Positions 41,555 through 58,026 of a stretch of DNA of 64,000 nt are shown piece after piece; positions within the stretch are counted from its first letter, which is position 1, and every line of letters starts with the position of its first letter. A model generated the notes under the pieces. The model was not told the origin of the DNA. It made no database searches and saw only the letters and a program-made list of their open reading frames with translations. The translations under genes and the position numbers were made by a program. The DNA comes from Granulicoccus phenolivorans DSM 17626 = NBRC 107789 = JCM 15570 (GTDB taxonomy: Bacteria > Actinomycetota > Actinomycetes > Propionibacteriales > Propionibacteriaceae), in assembly GCF_000423085.1 (NCBI RefSeq), contig NZ_AUHH01000010.1:1-64000 (forward strand). Direction: 5' to 3'.

Positions 41555-42781
41555 TCAGGACATCCGCTCCAGGATCATCGCCATACCTTGGCCGCCGCCC
41601 ACGCACATGGTGATCAGTCCCGTGGTCTTGTCGTGCCAGTCCAGTGAGTTGAGCATCGTGTTCTGCAGGCGAGCGCCCGTCATTCCGAACGGGTGTCCGA
41701 CGGCGATCGCTCCACCGTTGACGTTGAGCTTGTCGATGTCGATGTTCAGGTCGGACGCCGACGGCAGCACCTGCGCGGCGAATGCTTCGTTGATCTCGAC
41801 CAGGTCGATGTCGTCGATCGTCATTCCGGCATAGCGCAGCGCATTGCGGGTTGCCTCGACCGGCCCCAGCCCCATGATCTCCGGAGAGAGCCCGGAGACC
41901 CCGGTGGACACGACCCGGGCCAGGGGCGTCAACCCGAGCTGAGCCGCCTTGTGGTCCGACATGATCACGACGGCCGCCGCACCGTCGTTCAGCGGGCAGC
42001 AGTTGGCTGCGGTGACCACCCCATCGGGGCGGAAGACCGGGTCGAGGTCTTTGACTCCGTCATAGGTGACGCCGGCACGCGGGCCGTCGTCGGCGGTGAC
42101 CACGGTACCGTCGGGGGTGGTGACGGGTGTTATCTCGCGGGCCCAGAATCCGTCGGCGATCGCCTTCTCAGCGAGGTTCTGAGAGCGCACCCCGAACAGG
42201 TCAGCGTCCTCGCGGGTGACGCCGCGCATCCTGGCGACGTTCTCGGCCGTCTGCCCCATCGCAATGTAGACGTCCGGCATCACTCCGTCGGAGCGAGGAT
42301 CGCGCCAGTCAGCGGTGGTCACCCCGTCCCCTTTCGCAGCTGCGGCCGAGCGGGCCACCGCCTCGTCGAAGCGTGGGTTGCGCGTGTTGGGGATGTGGTC
42401 GGAGGTCCCGAACTGGAACCGTGACACCATTTCCACCCCGCCAGAGATGAACACGTCCCCTTCGCCGGCTTTGATTGCGTGGAACGCCATCCGGCTCGAC
42501 TGCAGCGAAGACGCGCAGTAGCGCGTGACCGTCGTGCCCGGCATCTCATACCCCATCAGGGTCGTGACCACGCGCGCCATGTTGTTACCGGCCTCCCCAC
42601 CGGGCAAGCCACAACCGAGGATGAAGTCGTCCGCATCGGCCGGATCCAGGCCGGGGACTTTGTCCAGGGCCGCCTGCGTGATGAATGCGGCCAAGTCATC
42701 GGGCCGAAAATCCTTGAGCGACCCCTTCTTCGCTCGACCGATCGGTGTACGAGCCGCGGCAACGATTACTGCTTCAGGCAT
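41555..42781 (-). CDS. Thiolase, acetyl-CoA C-acyltransferase type (408 aa)
   Basis: Degradative thiolase. The acyl-accepting Cys89 is in TVTRYCASSLQSS; NEAFAAQVLPSAS, the base His in VGHPFGMTGAR and the second Cys in MCVGGGQGMAM complete the active site. It would cleave a 3-ketoacyl-CoA with CoA to release acetyl- or propionyl-CoA. It is the last gene of the operon that begins with the mycofactocin-coupled SDR, behind the operator at 45190. Length is normal. Confidence 0.93.
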   Translation of the reverse strand: MPEAVIVAAARTPIGRAKKGSLKDFRPDDLAAFITQAALDKVPGLDPADADDFILGCGLPGGEAGNNMARVVTTLMGYEMPGTTVTRYCASSLQSSRMAFHAIKAGEGDVFISGGVEMVSRFQFGTSDHIPNTRNPRFDEAVARSAAAAKGDGVTTADWRDPRSDGVMPDVYIAMGQTAENVARMRGVTREDADLFGVRSQNLAEKAIADGFWAREITPVTTPDGTVVTADDGPRAGVTYDGVKDLDPVFRPDGVVTAANCCPLNDGAAAVVIMSDHKAAQLGLTPLARVVSTGVSGLSPEIMGLGPVEATRNALRYAGMTIDDIDLVEINEAFAAQVLPSASDLNIDIDKLNVNGGAIAVGHPFGMTGARLQNTMLNSLDWHDKTTGLITMCVGGGQGMAMILERMS

Positions 42782-42845: not shown

Positions 42846-44327
42846 TCAAGAGTCGATCGGTCGCGCAGCTGCCTCGAAGACGGGCACCATCTCGGGGGTG
42901 AGGTTCACGGTCTTCAACTCGTAGAACGACTCGACCGCTTCGGGGCCGGTGTCGCGGCCGACGCCGGAGTCCTTCACGCCACCGAAGGGCGCTTCGTGGT
43001 TGTAGGTGAAACTGTTGATGCTGAACGTTCCGGTGTGGACCTCTCGCGCCACCCGTGCGGCAACGGTGGGGTCCTGGGTGAACACCGCACCGTGCAGGCC
43101 GTAGACCGAATCGTTGGCGATGGCGATCGCCTCGTCCAACGAGTCGTAGGAGATCACCGAGATCACCGGGCCGAAGATCTCCTCCTGGCTGATCCGCATC
43201 TCGTTCGTGGCGCCGGCGAAGACGGTGGGCGAGACGAAGAACCCGCGCGACAACCCCGAGGGTCGACCACCCCCGGTGGCCACCACCGCACCCTCGGATC
43301 GACCTGCGTCCACGTACCCTGAGACCGTCTCATACTGCTTGCGCGAGGCCACCGGTCCCATCGTGGTCGAGGTGTCGGCCGGGTCACCCACCACCAACGA
43401 CTCTGCAGCAGCCACCAAGGCCTGCGTCAACTCGTCGGCACGCCCGCGGGGCACCAGGATGCGGCTGTAGGAGGCGCACACCTGACCAGAGTTCATGAAC
43501 GACCCCATCCGGATACCGCTCATTGCCAGTTCCACGTCGACGTCCTCGGCGAGCACGGCAGCCGACTTACCGCCCAGCTCCAACTGCACCCTTTTGAAGG
43601 CGCCACCGGCCACTCGTCCGATCTCTCGGCCGGTCGACGTCGACCCGGTGAAGCTGATCTTCTGCACATCCGGATGGGCCACCAGAGCCCGTCCGATCCC
43701 CGGGCCGCTGGTGATCAGGTTGAGCACCCCGGCCGGCACCCCGGCCTCAGTCAGCTCCTCGACGACGAGGTAGGCGTCGAGCGGCGTCTCGAGGGCCGGC
43801 TTGTACACCACCGAGCATCCGGTCACCAGGGCCGGGATGATCTTCTGGATCGCCACCGCGAACGGGCCGTTCCACGGGGCGATGGCAGCGACGACCCCGA
43901 CCGGCTCGCGCAACACCGCTGCCGGGCCGCTTGAGGTCTGGCGGATCTCGGTCGTTGGCAGGTCGGTCGCCACGTCGAGGAAGTAGCGGCCCATTTCGAT
44001 CGACGAGGACACCTGTCCGGCGGCGTTGCTCGCCGGCAGCCCCATCTGCGTGGTGATGAGGCCGGCCAGCTCGTCGCTGCGGGTGGCCAGCCGGTTCAAC
44101 GCGTTCGCCAGAATGCGGGCACGCTCGGCGACGGTTCCGCGCCGCCAAGGCCCGTTGCGGAACGCGTTGGCAGCCGACCTGACCGCACGATTGACATCAT
44201 CAGGACTGGCCTGGGCAACCCGGGCGACGGTCTCCTCGGTCGCCGGGTTGACGATCGACGTTGTCTCGTCAGCTCCGGCCGGCACCCATTCGCCGTCGAT
44301 GAACAACATTTCACGGTCGGTCAGCAT
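42846..44327 (-). CDS. Aldehyde dehydrogenase (493 aa)
   Basis: NAD(P)-dependent ALDH superfamily. Cofactor motif SFTGSTSTGREIGR (225-238), general base Glu250 in QLELGGKSA, nucleophile Cys284 in SGQVCAS, and C-terminal EIFGPVISVISY and NSFTYNHEAPFGGVKDSGVGR. It oxidises an aldehyde to an acid and probably acts on the product of the SDR encoded immediately upstream (16 bases). Substrate unknown. Confidence 0.93.
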   Translation of the reverse strand: MLTDREMLFIDGEWVPAGADETTSIVNPATEETVARVAQASPDDVNRAVRSAANAFRNGPWRRGTVAERARILANALNRLATRSDELAGLITTQMGLPASNAAGQVSSSIEMGRYFLDVATDLPTTEIRQTSSGPAAVLREPVGVVAAIAPWNGPFAVAIQKIIPALVTGCSVVYKPALETPLDAYLVVEELTEAGVPAGVLNLITSGPGIGRALVAHPDVQKISFTGSTSTGREIGRVAGGAFKRVQLELGGKSAAVLAEDVDVELAMSGIRMGSFMNSGQVCASYSRILVPRGRADELTQALVAAAESLVVGDPADTSTTMGPVASRKQYETVSGYVDAGRSEGAVVATGGGRPSGLSRGFFVSPTVFAGATNEMRISQEEIFGPVISVISYDSLDEAIAIANDSVYGLHGAVFTQDPTVAARVAREVHTGTFSINSFTYNHEAPFGGVKDSGVGRDTGPEAVESFYELKTVNLTPEMVPVFEAAARPIDS

Positions 44328-44343: not shown

Positions 44344-45168
44344 CTAGCGGTTGAAGAAGCCGGCGTCCACGGCCAGCTGGCTGCCGGTGACGTAACGCGC
44401 TTCGTCGGAGACGAGGTAGATCATCGCGTTGGTCACGTCGATCGGCTCCACCAGATCGACCGGCATCGGATTCTTGATCATCGGGTCGTTGGCGATCTCG
44501 GGGAACTGCTCGGTGTAGGACTTGTGCTCGTTGTTGACGACCATCGGGGTGTTGACTCCGGTGGGGTGCACGACGTTCACCCGGATCATGTCCTGAGTCA
44601 GCTTCGAGGCGTAGATGCGCATCAGTCCGACGACCCCGGCCTTGCACGCCGAGTAGGACACCATGCCGGGCAGTCGGTTGATGCCCGCACCGCTGTTGCC
44701 CGAGGTCGAGCCGGTGATCACGATGGATCCGCCCTGTCCCTGTTCGAGCAGGTAGGGAAGGGTTGCTTCGATCGAGTGCCAGACACCGGTCAGCAGGACG
44801 TCGATGCCGTCGAACCAGGCGCGGTCGTCCGCACCTTCGTTGATCAGCGGCATGATGCCGGCGTTCGCGATCAGCGCGTCGACGCGCCCGAACTCGGCCA
44901 CGCCGTCGGCCAGGGCGGCCTTGAGCGACTCCCGGTCACGGACGTCGGCCACTCGGGCGACGATCCTGCCACCGGCTGCCTCGACCTGGCGGACGGTCTC
45001 GTCGAGATCGTCCTTGGTGGACATCGGGTAGAACACCGTCGGGATCTGCTCGCAGATGTCGATGGCGATGATGGACGCGCCCTCCTTGGCCATTTCGACC
45101 GCGTGCGATCGGCCCTGGCCGCGCGCGGCGCCGGTGATGAAGACGACTTTGCCGTCCAGTCTTGCCAT
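44344..45168 (-). CDS. Mycofactocin-coupled SDR oxidoreductase (274 aa)
   Basis: Short-chain dehydrogenase of the TIGR03971 group. The nucleotide motif TGAARGQGRSHAVEMAKEGA and IIAIDICEQIPTVFYPMST match its characteristic G-x-x-R-G-Q-G-R-S-H-A and long insert before the catalytic part. Ser153, Tyr172 and Lys176 (SYSACKAG) form the catalytic set. In this group the nicotinamide is held tightly and re-oxidised by mycofactocin. The start ATG 45168 has GGAGGT four bases upstream. It heads the SDR-ALDH-thiolase operon behind an operator. Confidence 0.9.
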   Translation of the reverse strand: MARLDGKVVFITGAARGQGRSHAVEMAKEGASIIAIDICEQIPTVFYPMSTKDDLDETVRQVEAAGGRIVARVADVRDRESLKAALADGVAEFGRVDALIANAGIMPLINEGADDRAWFDGIDVLLTGVWHSIEATLPYLLEQGQGGSIVITGSTSGNSGAGINRLPGMVSYSACKAGVVGLMRIYASKLTQDMIRVNVVHPTGVNTPMVVNNEHKSYTEQFPEIANDPMIKNPMPVDLVEPIDVTNAMIYLVSDEARYVTGSQLAVDAGFFNR

Positions 45169-45189
45169 GGTGACCTCCATTTGTAAACT

Positions 45190-45205
45190 ACCAGTCGTTT
45201 GGTTG
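45190..45205 (-). promoter_or_regulatory. Locus operator 1 (ACCAGTCGTTTGGTTG)
   Basis: One of about ten copies of the same imperfect palindrome in the locus. On the minus strand it fills the spacer between TTATCA and TTACAA, which could be -35 and -10 elements, 22 bases before the SDR start codon. That position fits repression by a TetR-type protein. Confidence 0.75.
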
Positions 45206-45268
45206 ATAATATGGCTCGGTCGACGGACCGTCAATGCCTCCGGTGCCAGCGGCCAGCAAGGCCGACGA

Positions 45269-45661
45269 TCAGGAACTGGGAGCCAGTCCGTCGGTCAGGA
45301 TGCGGCTGGTGCGGCGCAGGATCCGCCATCCGTCGGCAGTCCGCACGTACTCGTCCGCGTAGTCGCCCGTGGTCACACTCGCGTTGGCGTGCACGCACAG
45401 GAACTTGACCATCCCGGTGGCGTGGTGCGGGCGCTCATCGAACTCGATGAAGATGTTGGTTCCGTGGTGCATCGGCATCACTGCCTGCTTGAGGTAGGCC
45501 ACCACGGCCGCCCGACCCACGTGCGCCCCGGATGTGGCCGAGTGGTATTCGCCGTCCTCGGCGTAGACCTCGTCCAGGCGGCCCCACAGGCCACGGTCGA
45601 TGGCATGGCCGTAGAGGGCGAGCATCTGATTGATCTCGACGATGTCGTTGATTCGCTCCAT
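45269..45661 (-). CDS. NTF2-like/SnoaL-type protein (130 aa)
   Basis: Cone-shaped alpha+beta barrel family: DIVEINQMLALYGHAIDRGLWGRL and DEVYAEDGEYHSATSGAHVGR form the N-terminal helices and first strand. HHGTNIFIEF and VHANASVTTGDYADEYVRTADGWRI complete the SnoaL_4 fold, which includes BaiE-like dehydratases and ketosteroid isomerase-like enzymes. His82-83 and Asp/Tyr residues could be catalytic, but the reaction is unassigned. It is the last gene of the SDR-SDR-ColD-like-lactonase series on this strand. Confidence 0.8.
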   Translation of the reverse strand: MERINDIVEINQMLALYGHAIDRGLWGRLDEVYAEDGEYHSATSGAHVGRAAVVAYLKQAVMPMHHGTNIFIEFDERPHHATGMVKFLCVHANASVTTGDYADEYVRTADGWRILRRTSRILTDGLAPSS

Positions 45662-45759: not shown

Positions 45760-46716
45760 TCAGCCCTGGTAGCGCACCTTCGGCACACCGCTCACGCCGA
45801 GACCGTGGACGGCGAGCAGGCAGCCACCGACCTGACCGTCGCCGGGAGCTGCGACACCCTGGATGCCGGCCTCCATCAGGCTGGTGACGAACATGATGTC
45901 CATGTTCGGCCCGCCGAAGGTGGCGTTGGTGACCGAGAGGATCGGCAGCGCGACCGTGCGCTCCAGCTGACCTTCCGGGGAGTAACGGCGCAGTTCTCCG
46001 GCGCGGCAGATGGTGATCCAGACACCACCCTCGCTGTCGACGATGATGCCGTCGGGGTCACCCAGACCGTTCGTGCCACGATCCTCCCGCGCCACGAAGG
46101 AGGCGAACTCACTGCGGTTCGACACGCTCCCGGTTTCGGGATCCAGATCGTAGGCGTACACGACGTTGGCCCAGCTGTCGCTGACGTAGAGGCGCTTGCC
46201 GTCCGGGCTGACACCGGGGCCGTTGGTGATGCCGTAGCCCTCGTCGATCAGCTGGAGCTTCTGGTCGGCGTCGATCCGGTACAGCTTCGCCGGCGGATGG
46301 ACCTGGCCGCGCAGCGACCGCGAGGCGCCCTCCCAGAACGGGCGGGTGGAGTGCCCGGTGATCAGCCGACCCTTCGAATCGGTGGTCGAGTCGTTGAACA
46401 GCAGTGGCGACCCGGCCTCCAGTTCGTCGATCGTCGTCACCTCGTTGGTCTCGAAGTCGAACAACCGGATCCCGGTCCGCTTGGTCGACTCCGACAGACT
46501 CGCCATGATGGCCCCACCCTGCTGGCGCAGCACCATCGACGACACGCCCGCGGTGTCGGCGGGCTTCCATAGGTTCAGTTCACGGCCGTCCGGGGTGGTT
46601 CGGTAGATGAGGCCGCCCAGGGCATCCGACCAGTACAGCCGCTGCTCCGCGTCGTCCCACCAAGGTGAGGTCCCCATCGTCGTCTTCGCGGGGGTCAGGA
46701 TTTCAAAGTTGACCAC
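45760..46716 (-). CDS. SMP-30/gluconolactonase-family lactonase, paralogue 1 (318 aa)
   Basis: Six-bladed beta-propeller of the SMP-30/LRE family: SPWWDDAEQRLYWSDALGG near the N-terminus (usually containing a metal-binding Glu; here that position reads GTSPWW), LLFNDSTTDSKGRLITG (Asn metal ligand), TNGPGVSPDGKRLYVSDSWA (Asn and Asp ligands) and GGPNMDIMFVTSL near the end. The usual E of GExP is not evident, so activity might be altered. It would open an aldonolactone-like ring. It lies 99 bases after the ColD-like gene in the same direction. Confidence 0.88.
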   Translation of the reverse strand: MVNFEILTPAKTTMGTSPWWDDAEQRLYWSDALGGLIYRTTPDGRELNLWKPADTAGVSSMVLRQQGGAIMASLSESTKRTGIRLFDFETNEVTTIDELEAGSPLLFNDSTTDSKGRLITGHSTRPFWEGASRSLRGQVHPPAKLYRIDADQKLQLIDEGYGITNGPGVSPDGKRLYVSDSWANVVYAYDLDPETGSVSNRSEFASFVAREDRGTNGLGDPDGIIVDSEGGVWITICRAGELRRYSPEGQLERTVALPILSVTNATFGGPNMDIMFVTSLMEAGIQGVAAPGDGQVGGCLLAVHGLGVSGVPKVRYQG

Positions 46717-46815: not shown

Positions 46816-48039
46816 TCAGCCCACGGTCGAAAGAAAGTCCTTGATGTCGTCGCAGATGCGGTCGACCTCGGCGATCCCCATGTTGTGGTGCAGCGGGAAC
46901 ATCACGTGGCGCTCCAGCACCGCGTCGCAGTTCGGCAGGCCTCCTTCGGGGGCCTTGTACTCCTGGCCGCGCATCATCGGCTGGCGGGTCATGTTGCCCG
47001 ACCAGATCGTGCGCGCCACGATGTTCCGGCGGTCCATGTGCTCCTGAATGTCGGCCCGGATGAAGGGAGAGCCGGGCACGATCTCGACCGCGAAGCCCAT
47101 CCAGATGGCGTCCGCACCGTCGAGCACCACCGGCGGGACGAAGTATTTGTCGAAATCGGCGAACCGCTCGACATAGCGGGCGTAGTTCTCCCGGCGGATC
47201 TTGTTGAACTCCTCGACGCGGGTCAACTGCACGCGGCCGAAGGCGGCACCGATCTCGGCGGGCTCGAAGTTCCAGCCGATCTCGTCGTAGATCATGTCGT
47301 CGTTGTAGACGACTCCGTCCAGATCACCCCGGAAGGAGCGGGTGCGGCCACTGCCATCCCAGAGGAATTCCTCGCTGCGCCAGCCCCAGCGGCGCAGCTT
47401 CAGGCCGAGCTTCCACAGTCGCTCGTCATCGGTCAGGATCATGCCGCCGGCACCGGCGCAGGTGATGTGGTGGGCGAGGGCGAAGCTGGTCACGGTGATG
47501 TCGGCGCGCTCGGAGGTGGGCCGGCCCCGCAGGACCGGCGCGAAAGCATCGCAGGAGTCCTCGATGGTGAGGACGCCGTGCTCGGAGGCCAGCGCCTGGA
47601 TGCGGTCCCAGTCCGGCATGCTGCCCACCAGGTTGGGGACCATGATGGCCTTGGTGGCGGGGGTGATCGCTTCGGCCAGCCTGTCGACGTCCACGTTGTA
47701 GGTGTTGGGTTCGACGTCGACGAACGAGGGCACCAGACGCGCGTGGATGAGCGCGGAGATGTCGGTGGAGAAGGTCAGCGCGGGAGTGATGATCTCCGAA
47801 CCGTCCTCGAAGTCGAGCAGGTCCAGGGCCAGGTCGATGGCCGACGACCCGGAGTTCACCATCAGGCCGTGTGCCTTGCCGAACCTCGCGGCACACTCCC
47901 GCTCGAACTGCAGGACGTTCTGGCCCAGGCGCATGTTCTGCGAGTTCGCGAAGCCGCTCTCCAGCACGTCGACGACGGCTTTGATCTCCTCTTGATCGTA
48001 GTAGCAATCGGCGAAGTCGATCTTGCGTTGATTTGACAC
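46816..48039 (-). CDS. DegT/DnrJ-fold PLP enzyme with His in place of the PLP lysine, ColD/E1-like (407 aa)
   Basis: DegT/DnrJ/EryC1/StrS aspartate aminotransferase fold: LMVNSGSSAIDLALDLLDF (phosphate-binding region), EIITPALTFSTDISALI, VLTIEDSCDAFAP (pyridine-binding Asp161). In sugar aminotransferases the next motif is SFxxxK with the Schiff-base Lys. Here it reads TSFALAHHITCAGAGGM, with His190 at the Lys position. That substitution is the hallmark of ColD and CDP-hexulose 3-dehydratase (E1), which use PLP or PMP to remove a C3 hydroxyl. GTG 48039 is preceded by GAGGAG. It is unexpected in a catabolic lactonase/thiolase locus. Confidence 0.88.
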   Translation of the reverse strand: MSNQRKIDFADCYYDQEEIKAVVDVLESGFANSQNMRLGQNVLQFERECAARFGKAHGLMVNSGSSAIDLALDLLDFEDGSEIITPALTFSTDISALIHARLVPSFVDVEPNTYNVDVDRLAEAITPATKAIMVPNLVGSMPDWDRIQALASEHGVLTIEDSCDAFAPVLRGRPTSERADITVTSFALAHHITCAGAGGMILTDDERLWKLGLKLRRWGWRSEEFLWDGSGRTRSFRGDLDGVVYNDDMIYDEIGWNFEPAEIGAAFGRVQLTRVEEFNKIRRENYARYVERFADFDKYFVPPVVLDGADAIWMGFAVEIVPGSPFIRADIQEHMDRRNIVARTIWSGNMTRQPMMRGQEYKAPEGGLPNCDAVLERHVMFPLHHNMGIAEVDRICDDIKDFLSTVG

Positions 48040-48119: not shown

Positions 48120-48878
48120 TCAGATGACCGACCCAGCGCTGGTGTGGATTGCCTGGGCGGTGATCTGGCGACTGCCCGGGAGGCACAGGAAGACCACCAC
48201 GAAAGCGACATCCTCCGGCGTCGAGATCCGGCCGAAGAAGTTGGCCAGCGGACCTTCGGTCATCGCCTGGTTGCCGAGGCCGCTGCTCACGACCCGATCG
48301 GTCGCGGTCAGCCCGGGGACCACGGCGTTGACGTTGATGTCGTGCTTGCCCAGCTCGGCCGCCGCGATCTTGGTGAACTGCACGACACCGGCCTTCAATG
48401 AGCCGTACGCCGGTTTTACCCCGGCGGCACGATAGGCCGAGCTGGACGAGATGTTGACGATCTTTCCGCCGCCACCACGTTCGATGCGATGACTGCCGAA
48501 CAGTCCGGTGAGAATCGCCGGAGTGCGCAGGTGGATCGCGTACATCGCGTCCCACACCGCGGTGTCGACGCCCAGGACGGTGTCGTTCGGGTTCAGGAAC
48601 CCGGCAGCGTTGACCAGGATGTCGACATCACCCAGCGCCAGGACGTCCGCGAAGGCGGCGTTCAGGGCGGCTTCATCGGTGACGTCGAGTTGGTGCGTCG
48701 ACGCGCCGTCCCCGATCGCCGCGGCCGTCGACGCCAAGGCATCCCCGTCACGATCCCACAGCGCCACCGCGGCGCCGGCCTCGGCCAGCGCGGTTGCCAC
48801 CGCTCGACCGATGCCGTTGCCCGCCCCGGTGACCACCGCGCGCTTGCCCCTCAGGGGGTTGTTCCAGGCTGAGCTCAT
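48120..48878 (-). CDS. SDR-family oxidoreductase (252 aa)
   Basis: Classical short-chain dehydrogenase: NAD(P)-binding VVTGAGNGIGRAVATALAEAG (15-35), NAAGFLNP, catalytic Ser in NISSSSAYRAAG, Tyr and Lys in YGSLKAG, and NAVVPGLTATDR. Specificity is unknown; Asp in LWDRDGD after strand 2 favours NAD. Its start overlaps the upstream SDR stop (ATGA), so the two are coupled. Confidence 0.9.
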   Translation of the reverse strand: MSSAWNNPLRGKRAVVTGAGNGIGRAVATALAEAGAAVALWDRDGDALASTAAAIGDGASTHQLDVTDEAALNAAFADVLALGDVDILVNAAGFLNPNDTVLGVDTAVWDAMYAIHLRTPAILTGLFGSHRIERGGGGKIVNISSSSAYRAAGVKPAYGSLKAGVVQFTKIAAAELGKHDINVNAVVPGLTATDRVVSSGLGNQAMTEGPLANFFGRISTPEDVAFVVVFLCLPGSRQITAQAIHTSAGSVI

Positions 48879-49663
48879 GTCGTCACCCCACCGTTGACCG
48901 ACAGGGTTGCGTTGGTGACATACATGGCCTCGTCACTGGCGAGGTAGACACTGGCCCAGGCCACGTCGTCCGGCGTCCCCGGATAGGGCAGCCGGGAAAC
49001 CCGGTCACCCACCTGGGTGCGTGCCACGTGGTCCTTGTCCTCAAGGATTTTGGTGAGCCGCTCGGTGGCGATCATGCCGCAGTTGATGGCATTGACGCGC
49101 AGGCCGGTCTCGACGTACTTGGAGTACAGCGACCTGGTGAGGGGCTCGACCGCACCCTTGCTCAGGCAGTAGGCGGTGAAGTTCGGGCCACCGAGGTAGG
49201 TGACCACCGACGAGATGTTCGTGATGGACGCCCGCTCCGCCGCCAGCAGGTGTGGCAAGGAGTACTTGCACATCCACACCAGCCCGAAGTAGTTGAGGGC
49301 GACCGCCTGCTCGAGGCTTTCGTTCTCCACGTCGGCAACCGTCTTGTCACCGATCGCCATCGGATTCACCGACGCGTTGTTGACCAGCGTGGTCAGCTGT
49401 CCGTACTCGGCGATCGTCGACTCCACCAGCCGAACGACATCCTGCTCCGTGGTCAGGTCGGCCTCGACGAAGATCGCCTTGCCGCCACTGTCGGCGATGG
49501 CCGCCAGGGCGCTGTCGGCATCCTTGGAATCCTCACCGGTGATCACGACCGAAGCACCTTGTTGCGCGAACCGCAGACCGATCGTACGCCCGATCCCTCG
49601 CGTCGACCCGGTGATCAGGGCAACCTTGCCCTGAAGCCTCCCTTGGCCCCCCACACTCATCAA
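48875..49663 (-). CDS. SDR-family oxidoreductase (262 aa)
   Basis: Classical SDR: ITGSTRGIGRTIGLRFAQQGA, NNASVNPM (NNAx motif), Ser in NISSVVTYLGG, Tyr and Lys in AYCLSKGAV. First gene of the minus-strand operon SDR-SDR-ColD-like-lactonase-NTF2, starting 58 bases after the operator at 49721. Together with the coupled SDR it may oxidise a diol or 3-hydroxyacyl intermediate. Confidence 0.9.
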   Translation of the reverse strand: MMSVGGQGRLQGKVALITGSTRGIGRTIGLRFAQQGASVVITGEDSKDADSALAAIADSGGKAIFVEADLTTEQDVVRLVESTIAEYGQLTTLVNNASVNPMAIGDKTVADVENESLEQAVALNYFGLVWMCKYSLPHLLAAERASITNISSVVTYLGGPNFTAYCLSKGAVEPLTRSLYSKYVETGLRVNAINCGMIATERLTKILEDKDHVARTQVGDRVSRLPYPGTPDDVAWASVYLASDEAMYVTNATLSVNGGVTT

Positions 49664-49720
49664 CTCCGCCTCTCATCGCTCCACCATGAACAACGTCGAG
49701 CAGTCCAACACTGTAAAACT

Positions 49721-49736
49721 GCCAATCGGTTGGTTG
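49721..49736 (-). promoter_or_regulatory. Locus operator 2 (GCCAATCGGTTGGTTG)
   Basis: Copy of the locus palindrome. On the minus strand it is bracketed by TTACCA and TTTACA, placed like -35/-10 elements, in front of the SDR-SDR operon. It shares the divergent region 49664-49948 with operator 3. Confidence 0.75.
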
Positions 49737-49878
49737 GTAACATACTCAGCCTGGGCATGGGCGTCAAGGGTTATCCGGCACACTCGCCCAACGGTCGGCA
49801 ACCTGCTGACGCACTGCGACACCGGCCGCGTCGGCACCTCTTGACTGCGCGTGGGACAATGCTACGGTTCACCCTATA

Positions 49879-49897
49879 CCAACCAGTCGATTGGCTG
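49879..49897 (+). promoter_or_regulatory. Locus operator 3 (CCAACCAGTCGATTGGCTG)
   Basis: Copy of the locus palindrome on the plus-strand side of the divergent region, 52 bases before the VOC gene start codon. The core CCAGTCGATTGG is identical to that of operator 9. Confidence 0.75.
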
Positions 49898-49948
49898 AAT
49901 TGCTCGGTGCGGCCGAAATCGCTCCTCAGCCTGGGAAGGATTGCGAAC

Positions 49949-50506
49949 ATGTCCACTCCGAAGCCCGTCGTTCGAGGCATCGACCACATCGGCATCACCG
50001 TGCCCGACATCGAGACCGCGACCGAGTTCTTCGCCACGGCGCTGGACGCCTCGGTGCTCTACGACCCCTTACCCAAACAGCCCGAGGGCGCGGACGACCG
50101 GTTCGCCAAGGTCGACCTGTCGACCCGTCTGGGCGTACATCCGACCGCTCGGATCCGGGGCATCCGGATGCTTCGATTGGGCGAGAGCGCGACCCTCGAA
50201 CTCTTCGAGTACTCGGTCGAAGACCAGACCTCACCGATCCGGCCGGACGGTCTCGGCTTCCAGCACATCGGCATCTACGTCGACGACATCGACGCCATCG
50301 GCGAGCGCGTCGAAGCGGCCGGCGGTGAGCTGATGACCGGCCCCAACCTGATGAAGGGCCCCGAGGAGGGCGCGGGCAACGCGACCTGGTACATGCGCAC
50401 ACCGTGGGGCAGCACGATCGAGCTGGTCTCCTTCCCCAGCCCGAAACCGATCGAGGCCGATCACGAGGTGAAGCGCTGGCATCCGCCGGCCTGCCACGGT
50501 CACTGA
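49949..50506 (+). CDS. VOC-family protein, epimerase/lyase-like (185 aa)
   Basis: Two betaalphabetabetabeta modules: GIDHIGITVPDIETATEFF (His12 ligand) and GFQHIGIYVDDIDAIGERV (second His), with Glu in STIELVSFPSP as third ligand. This is the metal-binding pattern of methylmalonyl-CoA epimerase and glyoxalase-type enzymes. GGAAGGA precedes ATG 49949. It is divergent from the SDR operon and under the same operators. Confidence 0.87.
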   Translation: MSTPKPVVRGIDHIGITVPDIETATEFFATALDASVLYDPLPKQPEGADDRFAKVDLSTRLGVHPTARIRGIRMLRLGESATLELFEYSVEDQTSPIRPDGLGFQHIGIYVDDIDAIGERVEAAGGELMTGPNLMKGPEEGAGNATWYMRTPWGSTIELVSFPSPKPIEADHEVKRWHPPACHGH

Positions 50507-50628: not shown

Positions 50629-51564
50629 TCAGCGACCGGCGTTGCCCGGCTGCGGAAGTCCCGGGCGAGGCCAGGGCAACGAGAAGAGGCTGGTGTGCGT
50701 GGTGACATAGAGGGTCTGCAGATCGGCCCCACCGAAGCACACGTTCGTGCACGAGTCGCCCACCGCCAGGTATTCGACCAACCGGCCGTCCGGGGACACC
50801 AGCAGCAGACCGCCGTCGAGCACCGCCACGACAATCACCCCCGATGCCTCGACCGCCATCGAGTCGAGGCGGTAGGGAGTCGCCGCGATGATGCGGCGCG
50901 CACGCTCGGCACGGCCCGACGCATCCACCCCGAAAGCCACAACCCGGCCGGTCATCGTCTCCGACACATAGACGGTCTGTCCGTCCGGAGCCACGCCGAC
51001 ACCGTTCGGCGTCAGTGCCCAACCCGGTTCGAATTCGACCTCGCCACCGTCCCCCTTGATGTGCACCAGGCCACCGGTGTCGATCTCGTAGGGGCGCCGC
51101 TTACCGAAGTCGGTCGCCCAGAACCCGCCCCGCCGGTCGGACACGATGTCGTTCAGCCCCCGAAGCCACGGCTGTGATTCCGGACCGTGGAGTCGCTCCA
51201 CCTCGCCGGTGTCGGGGTTGACCCGATCGATCCACCCGCCCCGGTAGTCCGTCGGCGCCCACGAGGGCTCGCGGGTGTCCGGATCGCCGTCAGGACGTCC
51301 TTCCATGGCCGCCCAGTCGAAGCCACCGTTGTTGACGACGTACAGCAACCCGTCCAGGCCCAGCGCGGCACCGTTCGGTCCACCGCCGAGGTCTGCGATC
51401 TCGCCCAGCCCTGCCGTTTCGCTCCACCGCCGCAGCCGACCGCTCTTGATCTCGACGAAGGCGAGCGAGCCGTCCGGCAGGACGGTCGGTCCCTCGGCCA
51501 GCGCCAACCCGTCGAGGATGTTGCGGCGCCCTCGGCGCACTGCGTCCTGATCGAGCAATTCCAT
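50629..51564 (-). CDS. SMP-30/gluconolactonase-family lactonase, paralogue 2 (311 aa)
   Basis: Beta-propeller lactonase family: LALAEGPTVLPDGSLAFVEI contains the N-terminal metal-ligand Glu (AEGPT), GGGPNGAALGLDGLLYVVNNGG, GLNDIVSDRRGGFWATDFG (Asn), TPNGVGVAPDGQTVYVSETM (Asn, and Glu where Asp is usual) and SCTNVCFGGADLQTLYVTT. The ATG at 51564 has GAAAG upstream. It lies 230 bases after paralogue 3 on the same strand and may be the last gene of the transporter operon or separately transcribed. Confidence 0.9.
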   Translation of the reverse strand: MELLDQDAVRRGRRNILDGLALAEGPTVLPDGSLAFVEIKSGRLRRWSETAGLGEIADLGGGPNGAALGLDGLLYVVNNGGFDWAAMEGRPDGDPDTREPSWAPTDYRGGWIDRVNPDTGEVERLHGPESQPWLRGLNDIVSDRRGGFWATDFGKRRPYEIDTGGLVHIKGDGGEVEFEPGWALTPNGVGVAPDGQTVYVSETMTGRVVAFGVDASGRAERARRIIAATPYRLDSMAVEASGVIVVAVLDGGLLLVSPDGRLVEYLAVGDSCTNVCFGGADLQTLYVTTHTSLFSLPWPRPGLPQPGNAGR

Positions 51565-51794
51565 GACTTTCCTCTTTCGTCCTCGTTCTCTCCGCGGCAG
51601 CGCTGGTCGCCCTCCGCAACAGTTGAGTCGGCGCCGAGTCGAAGCCAGGCCCAGGACCGAAGCCCCCACGTCACAGTGAACCTCGCCCCACTGCCGTCCG
51701 CGTGGGCGTCGCATCGAGAGACCTTGCCTGAAGTGAGACACGATGGAGAGTTGGGTCGCCTGTTTGGCAGCAGGGCGGTCGGGCGCTGCGCCGG

Positions 51795-52697
51795 TCAGAA
51801 CCGGCATATCGGCTCGGCGATGCCCTGGAACGGCACGTCCACCGCGAACACCGCGCCGTCCAGCGGGTCGGGAGTTCCGATGTACTGGGGGTCGCCCAGC
51901 GAGGTGATATACAGCCGGCCCAGGTTCGGGCCGCCGAAGGCCACCATGGTGGGCATCCGGATCGGCAAATCGATCACCATGTCGAGCACGCCGTCACGGT
52001 CGAAGCGGACCACGGTGCCGTTCTCGGGCCCGGTGATCAACGCCAGCCAGTACCCGCCCTGGGTGTCCACCGCAGCGCCGTCCGGCTTGCCCAGGGTGTC
52101 GGGAACGGTCGCGAACAGGGACTCCGGACCGAGTGTGCCGGTCGTGTCGTCGTAGTCGCTGACGTAGATCTCCCGGCGCAAGGTCTCGGCCCGAAACATC
52201 CGGGTGCGGTCGGCGGAGAAGGCGGTGCCGTTGGCGGTGACGAGCCCGTCGATGACCGCGGTGGCCACGCCGTGGTCGTAGCGGTACATGGTGCCGAGTC
52301 CGCGCCCGGTCACCGGATCGGTGGTGAAGGAGGTGGAGTAGGAGCCCACCCACAACCGCCCGGCCGGATCGGTGCGACCGTCGTTGAACTTCAGGTCGGA
52401 CGACGGGTCGTAGGGCACGCCCACCACCCGCTCGATCGCCCCAGTGGCGGTCGTCAGTCGGTACACCCCGTCCTCACACGCCGCGATCAGAGTGCCGTCA
52501 CCACCCAGCGCGACGCACCCGGGCGCCGACGGCAGGTCCCACCGTTCGGACACCGTGGTGTCGACGTCCAGGCGGTGGATGCACGAACGGGTTGCGTCGA
52601 TCAGGTAGAGGCACTGCTCCTCACTGCTCCAGACCGGGCTCTCCCCGAGCATGGTGCGCAGGTCACCACCCACCACCTGGATGCCGAAGGAACTCAC
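51795..52697 (-). CDS. SMP-30/gluconolactonase-family lactonase, paralogue 3 (300 aa)
   Basis: Canonical SMP-30/LRE protein: LGESPVWSSEEQCLYLIDATRS (Glu19 metal ligand), DLKFNDGRTDPAGRLWVGS (Asn substrate/metal site), TANGTAFSADRTRMFRAETL (Asn; Ala-Glu replaces the usual Asp) and GKPDGAAVDTQGGYWLALI. The fold normally hydrolyses gluconolactone-like rings using Ca or Zn. Its start overlaps the ABC permease stop by 4 bases, so it is made with the importer; this ties lactone opening to uptake. Confidence 0.92.
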   Translation of the reverse strand: MSSFGIQVVGGDLRTMLGESPVWSSEEQCLYLIDATRSCIHRLDVDTTVSERWDLPSAPGCVALGGDGTLIAACEDGVYRLTTATGAIERVVGVPYDPSSDLKFNDGRTDPAGRLWVGSYSTSFTTDPVTGRGLGTMYRYDHGVATAVIDGLVTANGTAFSADRTRMFRAETLRREIYVSDYDDTTGTLGPESLFATVPDTLGKPDGAAVDTQGGYWLALITGPENGTVVRFDRDGVLDMVIDLPIRMPTMVAFGGPNLGRLYITSLGDPQYIGTPDPLDGAVFAVDVPFQGIAEPICRF

Positions 52698-53551
52698 TGT
52701 TCGTGCGCCTCGATCCGCTGCCAGCGCAGCAGGTGCTTCTCGACGAACTCGGCGATCAGGTAGAGGCCGGTGGCCAGGATCGTCAGCACGAACAACACCG
52801 CGAAGAGTCCGTCGGGTCGGAAGGTGTTGCCGAACCGGACAATGTCCTGACCCATGCCGACCCGGGAGGCGATCATTTCGCTGGCCACCACGCCGAGCAG
52901 CGCGTAGGTGAGCGCCAACCGGATGCCGGCGAACAGCGCCGGCACGCTGGTGGGGAGCAGCACCTTGAAGAGATAGGACGCACCGCGAAGACCGGTCACC
53001 CTCGCCATCGTCGCGATATCGGCATCGATGTTCTTCACCGCCGCGCGGCAGCTGACCAGCAGGACGAAGAAGACGATGGACACCGCCAGTGCAACCTTCG
53101 CCGTCATGGTGAGACCGAACCAGATGATGAACAACGGGGCAAGGGCGATACGCGGGATGCTGTTGAGCGGGGCGATCAGGATGCCGAAGACTTTGTCCAG
53201 GAACGGCGACAGGCCGAGCAGGTAGCCGGCCAGCGCCCCGGTCACGGTGCCGATGACGAAGGCGATCAGCATGGCCGTCATGGTCGCCAACAGCGATTTG
53301 ACCATCTGTCCGGAGTGGTAGTACTTACCCAGCGCCACGCCGATCTCCGACGGCTTGCTGGTGAACATCGGGTCGACCCATCCGCGGTTCGCGAACAGTT
53401 CCCAGGCCCCGAGCAACACCGCGATCAACAGCACGCGGCAAACGAGGATGACCCAGCGGTTCGTCGAGAAGACGCGCCAGCGCTTCCGGAACTTCTCACC
53501 TTTGGTGAGGACCGGCGCGACGGGCACGGGGGTTGCGGTTTGCGCGCTCAT
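52694..53551 (-). CDS. NitT/TauT-type ABC transporter permease (285 aa)
   Basis: Six TM helices of the BPD_transp_1/SsuC family: VILVCRVLLIAVLLGAWELF, LLATMTAMLIAFVIGTVTGAL, IALAPLFIIWFGLTMTAKVAL, then ALLGVVASEMIASRVGMGQD and LFVLTILATGLYLIAEF. The coupling (EAA) loop is around ATMARVTGLRGASYLFKVLLP. The stop overlaps the lactonase start and its own start abuts the ATPase stop, so it is the middle of a tightly packed operon. Confidence 0.93.
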   Translation of the reverse strand: MSAQTATPVPVAPVLTKGEKFRKRWRVFSTNRWVILVCRVLLIAVLLGAWELFANRGWVDPMFTSKPSEIGVALGKYYHSGQMVKSLLATMTAMLIAFVIGTVTGALAGYLLGLSPFLDKVFGILIAPLNSIPRIALAPLFIIWFGLTMTAKVALAVSIVFFVLLVSCRAAVKNIDADIATMARVTGLRGASYLFKVLLPTSVPALFAGIRLALTYALLGVVASEMIASRVGMGQDIVRFGNTFRPDGLFAVLFVLTILATGLYLIAEFVEKHLLRWQRIEAHEQ

Positions 53552-54471
53552 CAGGCGACCTCTTCTTCCTTGTCCTTGGTCAGGGCCCCGGAGCCCATGG
53601 CCCCTTCCAACTCGTGGAAGAAGGAGTGGTGGAGCTCTCGGAACTGGTCGGTGAACAGGATGTCGCCCAGGTCGTCCGCGCGCGGCCGCGGCAGGGGGAT
53701 CACGTGGTCGCCCGCGATCCGGCCCGGGCTCGGCAGCATCACGATGACCCGGTCGGCGAGCAGGATCGCCTCGGACAGGTCGTGGGTCACGAACACCACC
53801 GTCTTGCGGGTATCACCGTCGGAGAAGCCGTCCCGCTCCCAGATCGACAGGAACTCCCGCTGCAGGACCAGCTTCGTCCGCGCGTCCAGCGCTGCGAACG
53901 GTTCATCCATCAACAGCACGTTGGGATCGGGGGCCAGGGTTCGCGCGATCGCCGCACGCTGCCGCATGCCCTGGGACAACTCTCCGGGCAACGCATGGTA
54001 GTACGACGACAGACCGACGAGATCCAACATCTCCTGGGCTCGCCTGCGCCGGCCGCCACGGCTCCACCCGGGACGCACCTCCATCCCCAGTTCGACGTTG
54101 CGCACCACCTTGCGCCAAGGCAGGAGCGCATGCCGGGCAAACATGTAGCCCACGTCGAAGTTCGGGCACTGGGCGTGACTTTCCCCCAACGTGATCGTGC
54201 CCGTCGAGGGCGGGAGCAGGCCCGCGATCATGTTCAGCAGGGTGGTTTTGCCGCAGCCACTGGCCCCGACCAGGGCGACGAACTGCCCCTGGGGAATCGT
54301 CAGGTCGACGGTGTCGAGGGCCAGACGATCGGCGCGCGACTTGCCCTTTCCGGTCGCAAAGGATCGGGTGACCCCGCGGACTTCGATGTGTCCGCGTCCG
54401 CGACCGGCACTGCGGGCATCGACGGGTTGTCGGGAATCGGTGGAGCTGCGAGACGAGGTGATGAGGGACAT
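53551..54471 (-). CDS. NitT/TauT-type ABC transporter ATP-binding protein (306 aa)
   Basis: ATPase with Walker A VGASGCGKTT, Q-loop region MFARHALLPWR (typical of SsuB/TauB, where the Gln is shifted), signature LSQGMRQRAA, Walker B VLLMDEPFAALD and His in VTHDLSEA. An N-terminal extension of ~25 residues rich in Ser/Arg precedes the domain. ATG 54471 was chosen; an earlier in-frame ATG would overlap the intergenic region to the binding protein. Partner of the permease and binding protein encoded beside it. Confidence 0.93.
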   Translation of the reverse strand: MSLITSSRSSTDSRQPVDARSAGRGRGHIEVRGVTRSFATGKGKSRADRLALDTVDLTIPQGQFVALVGASGCGKTTLLNMIAGLLPPSTGTITLGESHAQCPNFDVGYMFARHALLPWRKVVRNVELGMEVRPGWSRGGRRRRAQEMLDLVGLSSYYHALPGELSQGMRQRAAIARTLAPDPNVLLMDEPFAALDARTKLVLQREFLSIWERDGFSDGDTRKTVVFVTHDLSEAILLADRVIVMLPSPGRIAGDHVIPLPRPRADDLGDILFTDQFRELHHSFFHELEGAMGSGALTKDKEEEVA

Positions 54472-54540
54472 GACAACTCTTTCGAACTTGGTGTGGCCCC
54501 CATCAAACGACCGAGGGCGGTTCACGGGACGCTTCGGCGG

Positions 54541-55593
54541 TCAGCCGAGCCGGTGGACGACGTCGTCGTAGGTGAGCTTTGAGGTGAGCACCTTCGCGTC
54601 GTAGAGGGCGGTGAGCGAGTTGTTCACCGGATCGGGGGTGATCTCGGTCGAGAACAAGGTGAGGTAGTGCAGCGCCGACTCAACGGCCGCGGGGTCGTTG
54701 ACCAAGCCGTACTCATCGAAGAGCATCTTCTTGATCTGGTCGGCGTTGGCCGGGTCCTTCACCGCGTCGTACGTCCCCTGCATGGCATCGCAGAAGGCCT
54801 TGGCCGTGTCCGGGTTGTGCTCCAGCCAGCTGATCTTGGCCGCGTAGCCGCCTCCGTTGACGTCAAAGGGCGGTACATCGTCGGCCAGGACGGAGACGAG
54901 GTCGATGGTTCCCTTGGCTCGCTCGTTCTGCATGGAGAACGCGTTGATGACGGTCAGATCCACTTGACCCTGATTGAGCGAGGCGACCGCCGCGTCCTGA
55001 CTGACCGGGATGAAGGTGATGTCTCCCTCGGCCAGACCTGCCAGGGACGCGGCAGCCTCGAAGCTGAGGTGAGGGCCGGAACCGAGCCCCGGCACGCCCA
55101 CGCTCTTGCCCTTCAGGCTCCGGATCGCCTCTTGCCAGGTCGCGAAGCCCCGGAACGGCTTCGCGCTCTCCCCTCCTGACTTGGCAACCAGGTAGGTCGT
55201 GGAGGTGGGCAGGTTGCCGCAGAACATCACCAGGTCGTGCCCCGCCTCCTTGGCGGACGCGACGGTGGTCAGTCCGCCGTACATGACATCCACCGAGCCC
55301 GACAGAACCGCCGAGACGGCCGCGGCCGAGTCCCCGACGCTGACCACCTCGAGGTCGAGACCGTGGTCCACGAAGACCCCGTGCTCCTGGCCGTAGACAA
55401 CGGGTAACTGGGCCGCGATGCCGGGGGCGGCGGATCCGAGGCTGATGTGCGTCCGCCCGCCGTCTTTCCCGGATTCCGAGGCCGTGCCACAGCCGGCGAG
55501 GACGGCCAACGCGACGACCCCGGCCGCCAGTGCCGCGCCCACTTTCTTTCCACGGCGGCGAGAACGACCGCCTCCCAGCCATTTCGCCATCAT
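54541..55593 (-). CDS. NitT/TauT-type ABC substrate-binding lipoprotein (350 aa)
   Basis: Lipoprotein signal (AALAAGVVALAVLAGCG, lipobox LAGC) and NMT1/THI5-like domain: LPVVYGQEHGVFVDHGLDLEVV, VDVMYGGLTTVASAKEAGHD, SLKGKSVGVPGLGSGPHLSF and VSQDAAVASLNQGQVDLTVI. The C-terminal half includes VNGGGYAAKISWLEHNPD and KLTYDDVVHRLG, which recur in the pseudogene at 62.4 kb. Family ligands include sulfonates, taurine, aromatic acids and pyrimidines. First gene of the importer-lactonase operon behind operator 4. Confidence 0.92.
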   Translation of the reverse strand: MMAKWLGGGRSRRRGKKVGAALAAGVVALAVLAGCGTASESGKDGGRTHISLGSAAPGIAAQLPVVYGQEHGVFVDHGLDLEVVSVGDSAAAVSAVLSGSVDVMYGGLTTVASAKEAGHDLVMFCGNLPTSTTYLVAKSGGESAKPFRGFATWQEAIRSLKGKSVGVPGLGSGPHLSFEAAASLAGLAEGDITFIPVSQDAAVASLNQGQVDLTVINAFSMQNERAKGTIDLVSVLADDVPPFDVNGGGYAAKISWLEHNPDTAKAFCDAMQGTYDAVKDPANADQIKKMLFDEYGLVNDPAAVESALHYLTLFSTEITPDPVNNSLTALYDAKVLTSKLTYDDVVHRLG

Positions 55594-55619
55594 CGGCAAT
55601 CACCCTTGAATCCGATTTC

Positions 55620-55636
55620 CAACCAACCGATTGGCT
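55620..55636 (-). promoter_or_regulatory. Locus operator 4 (CAACCAACCGATTGGCT)
   Basis: Copy of the locus palindrome, 27 bases before the binding-protein start. Reverse complement matches operator 2 almost exactly (AGCCAATCGGTTGGTTG). Confidence 0.75.
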
Positions 55637-55735
55637 GGCTTGCGGACGATCCTAAGTTGCCGGGCGGCCGCCGTCAACCCCTGCCCCGCACCCACCGAGA
55701 CCGCTCTCCAGGCGGCTCAGACCGACCCACACACC

Positions 55736-55774
55736 ACCAGTCGACCGGTTGGGAACCGCCAATCGGTATTTGGC
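55736..55774. promoter_or_regulatory. Locus operators 5a/5b (two degenerate copies)
   Basis: ACCAGTCGACCGGTTGG at 55736-55752 and GCCAATCGGTATTTGGC at 55758-55774 are adjacent variants of the motif, inside the 389-base region 55594-55982 upstream of the transporter operon. No gene is supported in this region. Confidence 0.55.
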
Positions 55775-55866
55775 AGCAAAGGAGCCTCGTGCCCGAACGA
55801 ATCGGACGCGAAGGCCACTGGGGTTCGGAAATCAGTCGAGCGGACGGACCACGTCGTCGTGGGTGT

Positions 55867-55890
55867 CAACCAATCGGTCGGCTGATTGGC
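55867..55890. promoter_or_regulatory. Locus operator 6 (extended, double half-sites)
   Basis: CAACCAATCGGTCGGCTGATTGGC contains overlapping half-sites CCAATCGG and CTGATTGG in opposite orientation. It lies near the 3' end of lactonase paralogue 4. It is the most upstream site of the transporter region and may help repress at a distance. Confidence 0.55.
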
Positions 55891-55982
55891 GGAAATCCCA
55901 AGCTCGCCAGAGAGCTGCGTCAACGATCAACCGAGGCCATCGTCAGCGCACCCGCGCGATGTGTCGTTCCTCTTGGTTGAAG

Positions 55983-57923: not shown

Positions 57924-57939
57924 ACCAGTCGGTTGGTTG
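57924..57939 (-). promoter_or_regulatory. Locus operator 7 (ACCAGTCGGTTGGTTG)
   Basis: Copy of the locus palindrome in front of pdxS. On the minus strand it lies between TAGACA and TATAGC, arranged as -35/-10 boxes. Confidence 0.75.
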
Positions 57940-58008
57940 TCTACTTTGATCACCGGACACGCCGACGCGTTGAATTCCCTGGTGCACACCCCTTGCGTTA
58001 CAATGCTT

Positions 58009-58026
58009 CAACCGACTGATTGGTTG
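58009..58026 (+). promoter_or_regulatory. Locus operator 8 (CAACCGACTGATTGGTTG)
   Basis: Variant of the locus palindrome, 76 bases before the TetR start codon. It suggests autoregulation. Confidence 0.65.

Follow-up and report, generated by a model that had tools for sequence, protein, structure and literature searches.

A probable PMP-type DegT-fold enzyme in a catabolic island of Granulicoccus phenolivorans belongs to a separate, apparently undescribed clade of His-for-Lys dehydratases

The window analyzed here, a stretch of 64,000 nucleotides from Granulicoccus phenolivorans, encodes a DegT-fold PMP/PLP enzyme (positions 46816-48039, minus strand; the product of this dehydratase gene is denoted P0001) that carries a histidine, His190, in place of the Schiff-base lysine and for which we propose the role of an alpha-hydroxyketone deoxygenase. 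P0001 belongs to a large, separate and apparently undescribed clade of His-for-Lys DegT-fold dehydratases. We consider it fairly probable that the enzyme is a glutamate/PMP-dependent, ColD-like remover of the alpha-hydroxyl of a ketone in the acyl-CoA catabolism of a cyclic or lipid-like compound. To our knowledge, the known His-type DegT enzymes all act on nucleotide sugars in biosynthesis, and among the titles listed in literature searches of a library with few subscription papers, none dealt with a catabolic DegT-fold dehydratase. The fold, the His-for-Lys exchange, the clade, the absence of Fe-S cysteines, the gene order, a shared palindrome and a second pdxS gene, all described below, are read from the sequence.

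The dehydratase gene runs from 48039 to 46816 on the minus strand as an intact ORF of 407 codons, with a GTG start at 48039 and the Shine-Dalgarno sequence GAGGAG 5 nt upstream; the plus-strand frame at the same coordinates, antisense to the dehydratase ORF, is also open. The 407-aa product matches the Pfam family DegT_DnrJ_EryC1 (PF01041) with an E-value of 9e-77 and a score of 259.1 bits, against a gathering cut-off of 19.8, which makes it a member of this fold family. The top NCBIfam model is RfbH, at 241.6 bits and thus under its cut-off of 423, and the top relatives in the PDB by sequence are E1 (6.9e-43) and then ColD (2.4e-40).

Within the segment TSFALAHHITCAGAGG (residues 184-199 of P0001), H190 is the first His of an HH pair and aligns with the Lys of the Lys-type DegT proteins (11 of 11 rows) as well as with the His of E1 and ColD, which confirms the fold and the catalytic replacement claimed in the first-pass annotation. 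Given that this His is kept in 86/86 rows of the clade, 7/7 of the sister clade, 22/22 of the E1-type and 3/3 of the ColD-type, its presence is not due to chance; P0001 has at this site the His of the His-type (PMP) 3-dehydratases instead of the Schiff-base Lys of sugar aminotransferases. A Schiff-base lysine located elsewhere in the protein, which had been named beforehand as an observation that would overturn this assignment, did not emerge from the 57-sequence alignment A3, where no lysine is invariant and K55 and K274 reach 90%. P0001 has Arg at position 274 and Lys at position 55, just N-terminal of the strand 57-61 and not at the Lys site.

The AlphaFold2 model of P0001, built from 57 sequences, has a mean pLDDT of 93 and a pTM of 0.91. 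When this model was compared with known structures using VIA-align, E1 came out on top (Z 49.5, rmsd 2.3, 384 residues aligned) and ColD second (Z 48.1, rmsd 2.1, 378 aligned), with Lys-type enzymes right after, perosamine synthase (Z 47.4) being tied with ColD, so that the fold alone cannot pick the enzyme class, which is decided by the His190 residue at the Lys site. The loop that contains four Cys in E1 has none in P0001, and among the 93 rows of the clade and its sister, 91 have no Cys in this loop and two (L106 and L117) have one; as three or more loop Cys served as the criterion for the E1 group, the Cys count of that group is circular, with the exception of the PDB row. P0001 lacks the [2Fe-2S] cysteine set of E1/RfbH, as ColD does, and therefore a ColD-like reaction without a reductase is indicated.

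According to the review PMC8987622, E1 and SpnQ hold a [2Fe-2S] cluster and ColD does not, the Lys-to-His replacement is the most important difference of 3-dehydratases from aminotransferases, and the His-type DegT enzymes described there act on nucleotide sugars in biosynthesis. That P0001 catalyzes some other PLP/PMP reaction on a catabolic intermediate, such as aminotransfer, epimerization or another elimination, seems unlikely to us. In the same review, SpnQ without its reductase is reported to transaminate when given glutamate and PLP, and the Glu of the GEGG/MEGG motif is replaced in the clade, mostly by Thr or Asn and by Ala197 in P0001, so that the active site differs from those of both E1 and ColD; against this, neither ColD nor E1 transaminated under such conditions in that account, and the weight it places on the Lys-to-His exchange separates P0001 from aminotransferases. 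A ColD-like deoxygenation remains the reading that we prefer.

A scan of genome contigs retained the best 80 of at least 567 relatives, so that the tallies given below refer to the closest family members. An alignment of 129 rows, comprising P0001, 126 relatives from the loci and the PDB fragments of E1 and ColD, was used for a quick tree of all rows and for a more careful one, under a mixture model, of 73 rows, the groups having been named from sequence features before the trees were built. Five groups each formed one side of a branch in both trees. In the 73-row tree, the supports were 100/99 for the Lys-type group, 100/100 for each of the ColD-type (3 rows) and E1-type (11 rows) groups, 100/99 for an alphaproteobacterial group, and 95/98 for the clade with P0001, which was recovered intact in 93% of 200 bootstrap trees and had an SH-aLRT of 98 in the 129-row tree. 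The clade and the alphaproteobacterial group are sisters (100/99), with E1 next (89/86), and P0001 lies outside the E1-type and ColD-type groups in the 73-row tree; the phylogenetic check against ColD and E1 that had been suggested for this gene shows it clustering with neither, in the 73-row and 129-row trees alike. P0001 forms a long branch (1.02), which makes its place inside the clade unsure, and groups with L103 and L117 at 57/94.

The clade is also marked by individual residues, namely, Asp93, present in 86/86 clade rows, with Thr in 42 of the 43 others and in all 32 nucleotide-sugar rows; Glu223, again in 86/86 rows and absent among the four commonest residues listed for each other group, including those listed for the nucleotide-sugar rows (31 of 32 listed); and Trp346, found in 84/86 clade rows and 0/43 others. 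P0001 carries all three, in agreement with its membership in the clade. The best match to P0001 among the 391 genomes of the order is 49% identical, that is, no closer orthologue was found there, and the genus comprises a single genome; a Rhodococcus member of the clade is 50% identical to P0001 and 49% identical to the alphaproteobacterial CDP-sugar members. That the window copy is drifting, its activity lost or changed while the clade is active elsewhere, we regard as very improbable. The long branch and the 12 departures of P0001 from residues kept in at least 97% of the other clade members, including R220W and G176S, would fit such decay, but the ORF is intact, its ribosome-binding site is good, the operon is preceded by a palindrome, His190, Asp161, Asp93 and Glu223 are all kept, and the structural model is confident. 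A metagenome-assembled genome labelled Bifidobacterium breve contains a clade member on a 4.5-kb contig (L067) that groups with an Acidimicrobiia row; this bin is probably mislabelled or contaminated.

Gene surroundings were tallied for the 66 clade loci that span 9 kb or more, 13 of 79 loci being shorter, using tblastn classes at an E-value of 1e-8, because mechanical gene calls put several neighbors wrongly antisense; the tallies are partly circular because most queries were drawn from clade, window or alphaproteobacterial loci. These 66 loci include SDRs in 48, acyl-CoA dehydrogenases in 29, Amidohydro_2 in 21, FadD in 18, Ltp2-type thiolases in 13, thiolases in 11, zinc ADHs in 8, GMC oxidoreductases in 7, F420 reductases in 5, and aldehyde dehydrogenases and luciferase-like genes in 2 each. 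At the same threshold, 4,6-dehydratase, epimerase, 2,3-dehydratase and glycosyltransferase are found in none of the 66, an NTP-transferase appears in three (L068, L069 and L096), always on the strand opposite the dehydratase, and SMP-30 queries from the window match none. In the alphaproteobacterial sister loci, cytidylyltransferase, 4,6-dehydratase, epimerase and glycosyltransferase are each present in 7/7, and the CDP-glucose genes also appear in the records' own annotation for three of them; the nucleotide-sugar queries came from L042-L044, L125 and L127, so that this positive control is trivial for 3 of the 7 loci, the other 4 having supplied no query. Queries for 4,6-dehydratase, epimerase, 2,3-dehydratase, cytidylyltransferase and glycosyltransferase gave no match at 1e-5 across the 64-kb window, in line with the absence of nucleotide-sugar genes that had been claimed for it, and the GDP-sugar genes that accompany ColD were likewise not detected there.

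It is improbable, in our estimate, that P0001 is an ordinary nucleotide-sugar 3-dehydratase with its partner genes elsewhere in the genome. Judged by its neighbors, the sister clade has this role in 7/7 loci, and RfbH is the best NCBIfam model for P0001, but the score of 241.6 falls short of the cut-off of 423, P0001 belongs to its own clade with Asp93, Glu223 and Trp346 unlike the 32 nucleotide-sugar rows, no 4,6-dehydratase, epimerase or glycosyltransferase is matched in the 66 clade loci or in the window, and gene order and palindrome are held in common with catabolic genes. The sister clade members (L041-L044, L115, L120 and L124), which lie beside rfbF/rfbG and are without the Fe-S cysteines, may be CDP-sugar 3-dehydratases that function independently of the E3 reductase.

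Since SDRs could be common by chance, distance from the gene was used as an internal control. Among 50 of the 79 loci, selected to be below 85% identity, SDR density reaches 1.61 per 10 kb in the nearest 2.5 kb around the dehydratase gene, compared with 0.37-0.76 beyond. An SDR on the same strand lies no more than 400 bp away in 19 of these 50 non-redundant loci (downstream in 17 and upstream in 2), and 20 have no classified same-strand neighbor within that distance. One SDR family abuts the dehydratase gene in 16 ORFs, near-duplicate loci included, with a median pairwise identity of 62.7% (minimum 50%) and carriers that extend from Rhodococcus as far as Acidimicrobiia and include a bin labelled Frankia. 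At 1e-60, this partner SDR occurs in 3 of 296 sampled genomes of the phylum, all three with the dehydratase; in two of these, the SDR match starts 15-18 bp past the dehydratase match (in G319, the match beside the gene has one TGA in frame), and in G298, it is on a different contig. G086 has the dehydratase and not the partner SDR, and the genome of P0001 gave no partner SDR match at 1e-60. The two SDRs adjacent to P0001 represent other subfamilies: one reaches at most 36% identity with the SDRs from other loci, and its companion gave no match at 1e-30. The window neighborhood was seen in no sampled relative, with an aldehyde dehydrogenase in 2/66 clade loci; of the conserved synteny sought for this gene, the SDR partnership was found in part of the clade and the window's own arrangement did not recur.

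The Rhodococcus, Tomitella and Nocardioides members of the clade form a subclade that sits inside operons of the steroid side-chain type. The order is fullest at L052 (Rhodococcus) and similar loci: TetR, MaoC-like (FAS1_DH), ChsH2-type OB/zinc-ribbon protein, Ltp2, the dehydratase and an SDR, then a steroid 3-ketoacyl-CoA thiolase, a fused acyl-CoA dehydrogenase, two acyl-CoA dehydrogenases, an SDR and an acyl-CoA ligase. At L052, Ltp2 matches PDB 6ok1 at 9.8e-168, the steroid 3-ketoacyl-CoA thiolase scores 585 bits (cut-off 515), the fused acyl-CoA dehydrogenase matches Tcur3483/Tcur3481 at 1.4e-36 (PDB 6wy8) and 1.9e-22, and the acyl-CoA ligase is nearest to CasI and FadD17, under both cut-offs; at L046 and L047, some of these genes are absent beside the dehydratase. 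Four other genomes of the order carry the dehydratase; a steroid-type operon is seen in three, and no Ltp2, thiolase or acyl-CoA dehydrogenase was found near the gene in the fourth (L135). Other members of the clade adjoin amidohydrolases, luciferase-like monooxygenases, GMC oxidoreductases or SnoaL/LEH-type genes, so that the substrate range is probably wider than steroids. Six additional clade loci (L138-L143), inspected separately from the main tally, include no steroid-type operon, and two of them (L140 and L141) have a partner-type SDR adjacent.

KshA_C, detected at 1e-70 in 79 of the 391 genomes of the order, is present in all four other clade-carrying genomes of the order (about 1e-92 to 1e-95), in three of them 16-37 kb from the dehydratase on the same contig; the four belong to one genus, which named loci suggest to be Nocardioides, and this co-occurrence is therefore statistically weak. 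Of the sampled genomes other than that of P0001, five carry a clade member, and four of these match KshA_C, strongly only in the Nocardia-like G086 (2.1e-93, 18 kb from the dehydratase) and weaker in G329 (3.6e-41), G319 (2.3e-29) and G298 (3.7e-8), with none in G138. The genome of P0001 (G000) shows no KshA_C match at 0.001, and a classical steroid, which was considered as the substrate in the window, is therefore unlikely.

In the window, the dehydratase gene is third in a minus-strand run of SDR, SDR, dehydratase, SMP-30, SnoaL, mycofactocin-type SDR, aldehyde dehydrogenase and thiolase, which bears out the neighbors named in the first-pass annotation, two SDRs upstream and a lactonase-type gene downstream. 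The first SDR gene (48875-49663; adh_short_C2, 1.8e-49) overlaps the next one (48120-48878; adh_short_C2, 3.4e-45, under the cut-offs of the NCBIfam models listed) by 4 bp, and the latter lies directly upstream of the dehydratase. Just downstream of the dehydratase follow an SMP-30/gluconolactonase-type gene (45760-46716; SGL, 1.5e-58), a SnoaL-like gene (45269-45661; SnoaL_4, 7.5e-22), a mycofactocin-coupled SDR (44344-45234; TIGR03971, 350 bits, cut-off 300), an aldehyde dehydrogenase (42846-44327; Aldedh, 1.6e-160) and a thiolase (41555-42781; NF005890, 730 bits, cut-off 580). The divergent, plus-strand gene is of the VOC/glyoxalase family (49949-50506; Glyoxalase_4, 8e-11; longer ORF 49028-50506). 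Beyond it, on the minus strand, are two SMP-30-type genes (51807-50629 and 52697-51795; SGL, 1.3e-42 and 9.1e-69), an importer with a permease (53551-52694) and an ATPase (54525-53551), both recognized by eye from the translation, and an NMT1-type binding protein (55599-54541; NMT1, 1e-19), and another SMP-30-type gene (55983-56918; by eye from the translation) abutting pdxS. The SMP-30/gluconolactonase-type genes of the island thus number four (45760-46716 and within 50629-56918), three identified by Pfam and one by eye. A TetR regulator (ORF 57937-58719, plus strand; TetR_C_24, 1.8e-28, with TetR_N from residue 84), the true start of which is probably the in-frame ATG at 58102, is followed by a lipid-transfer-type thiolase (58799-60313, minus strand; NF004715, 712 bits, cut-off 424) and an alpha/beta-hydrolase gene (62355-61642; Abhydrolase_6, 2.2e-16).

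A palindrome links these genes. It was first seen by reading upstream of pdxS and the importer, and the pattern drawn from those sites then also matched before the dehydratase operon (49721-49734), where it is a probable TetR operator, and before the VOC gene (49882-49895). Further sites precede the mycofactocin-type SDR gene (45190-45203, 1 mismatch) and the importer operon (55622, 55736 and 55869, within 55622-55882), and lie between pdxS and the TetR gene (57924 and 58011, within 57924-58024), between the lipid-transfer-type thiolase (minus) and an APH gene (plus; 60517-60530), and before the hydrolase gene (62351-62364, 1 mismatch). The palindrome hence precedes the dehydratase operon, the importer, the SDR-aldehyde dehydrogenase-thiolase operon and the second pdxS. 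In the window, the pattern has 20 matches over both strands at 11 places, two of which overlap and one of which (10096) is outside the island, with 1.4 matches expected and 0 of 100 shuffles reaching as many. The stricter RCCARYCGRYTGGY occurs at 16 places genome-wide, 10 of these on the window's contig, which makes up 3.5% of the genome (binomial 1.8e-11, post hoc; the reversed control gave 6 places); once those 5 that fall in the window are set aside, 5 of the 11 left still lie in the remaining 80 kb of this contig. In that part, the island continues with enoyl-CoA hydratases, two thiolase/ChsH2-type pairs, acyl-CoA dehydrogenases and a TauD-type dioxygenase, and, as judged by eye, SDRs, a transporter, a CoA-transferase and a phosphotriesterase-type gene. 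RCCARYCGRYTGGY thus appears to mark a catabolic island of roughly 55 kb, from window position 45190 through 62364 on to about 101 kb of the contig. The palindrome is probably the operator of the TetR protein encoded at 57937-58719, which would bind these sites, and the genes of each operon are presumably co-transcribed. At L076, L088 and L089, palindromic TTGAATGAACGTTCAA sites, unlike the operator in the window, lie between TetR and the dehydratase.

The second pdxS, a PLP synthase subunit gene (56921-57856, minus strand; SOR_SNZ, 2.1e-106), is 2 bp from the SMP-30 gene, is preceded by the palindrome and has no second pdxT; the other pdxS of the genome is on another contig, beside the only pdxT match. 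The two copies are 88.7% identical over 292 aa, and the catalytic lysines, at what we take to be their positions, appear to be kept in the second. In Prescottella agglutinans (L076, positions 1-136) and R. hoagii (L089, 1-118), the TetR gene facing the dehydratase is followed by an N-terminal part of pdxS that is cut off by the contig end, and the contig of L088 (1-50), from a third Prescottella/R. hoagii assembly, ends where, by eye, such a pdxS would begin; these ends fit near-identical second copies breaking the assembly, without proving it. A tblastn search with pdxS of 146 loci, many with short flanks, found no further linked copy outside the genome of P0001, and among 37 genomes searched, G788 has two full copies, G787 of R. 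hoagii has half a pdxS, four have none at 1e-50 and the rest have one. A dedicated supply of PLP for the dehydratase would make sense because a His-type enzyme cannot hold the cofactor as an internal aldimine, and this is the role we suggest for the second pdxS. Together with the shared palindrome, this gene ties P0001 to a catabolic regulon and to PLP use, in support of the catabolic setting first ascribed to it.

The reaction, cosubstrate and substrate of P0001 are proposed by analogy, the steps following the precedent of ColD. An SDR of the operon would oxidize a hydroxyl to a ketone, with which PMP, formed from PLP and probably L-glutamate, would form a ketimine; His190 would abstract the cofactor proton, the hydroxyl of the neighboring carbon would leave, and hydrolysis would free the deoxygenated ketone along with ammonia and PLP, the whole sequence proceeding without an Fe-S reductase, after which glutamate would restore PMP. 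The product could then pass to the lactonase, aldehyde dehydrogenase and thiolase steps, and the pdxS of the regulon itself would keep PLP high, because the cofactor is not covalently held. The polyol or keto acid originally suggested as the substrate is not favored: the steroid-side-chain-type acyl-CoA operons of the relatives and the acyl-CoA-type island of the window make a cyclic or lipid-like alpha-hydroxyketone likelier, one that would be steroid-like in the Rhodococcus/Nocardioides subclade and probably not a classical steroid in the window. The weakest points of this catabolic reading are the divergence of P0001, the missing partner SDR and the unshared window neighborhood.

Taken together, these observations suggest that sugar-type deoxygenation chemistry has been recruited for degradation. 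We see about an even chance for the broader proposition that a widespread, mainly actinobacterial clade of PMP-dependent deoxygenases, with a dedicated SDR and, in some lineages, its own PLP-synthase gene, strips alpha-hydroxyls from diol-derived ketones when steroids, terpenoid-like molecules and other cyclic compounds are broken down aerobically. If so, bacteria would have a non-oxidative, Fe-S-free means of taking hydroxyls off rings or side chains that are polyhydroxylated; the clade could contribute a further step to degradation of the steroid type and could supply biocatalysts for selective deoxygenation; the pairing with a conserved SDR and a second pdxS makes the idea directly testable.

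Among the known systems, ColD (GDP-4-keto-6-deoxymannose 3-dehydratase; PDB 2gms, 3b8x and 2r0t) resembles P0001 in fold (Z 48.1), in having His for Lys and in lacking the Fe-S cysteine set, and hence presumably in glutamate/PMP chemistry, whereas P0001 is 28% identical to it in the structural alignment, belongs to another clade, lacks the TMEGG motif, and is surrounded by catabolic genes with no GDP-sugar gene match. E1/RfbH (CDP-4-keto-6-deoxyglucose 3-dehydrase; PDB 3bcx and 3bb8) is the closest in fold (Z 49.5), has the best PDB sequence score and likewise has His for Lys, but P0001 has no Fe-S loop Cys, lacks the GEGG motif, misses the RfbH cut-off and has no CDP-sugar gene match in the window. 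The alphaproteobacterial sister clade, the nearest outside group, shares TSF-x(3)-H with the clade of P0001, likewise lacks the Fe-S cysteines, and differs in Thr93, Ser223 and Phe346 (7/7 each) and in the CDP-glucose genes of all 7/7 loci. Steroid side-chain degradation operons (ChsH1/H2, Ltp2, FadA5 and ChsE types), for which no DegT-fold enzyme appeared among the papers listed in the literature searches, house the Rhodococcus, Nocardioides and Tomitella members, in contrast to the window, where no operon of this type surrounds the P0001 gene. In its fold and catalytic residue, P0001 is of the ColD/E1 type, it falls in neither group, and its context is that of a catabolic enzyme.
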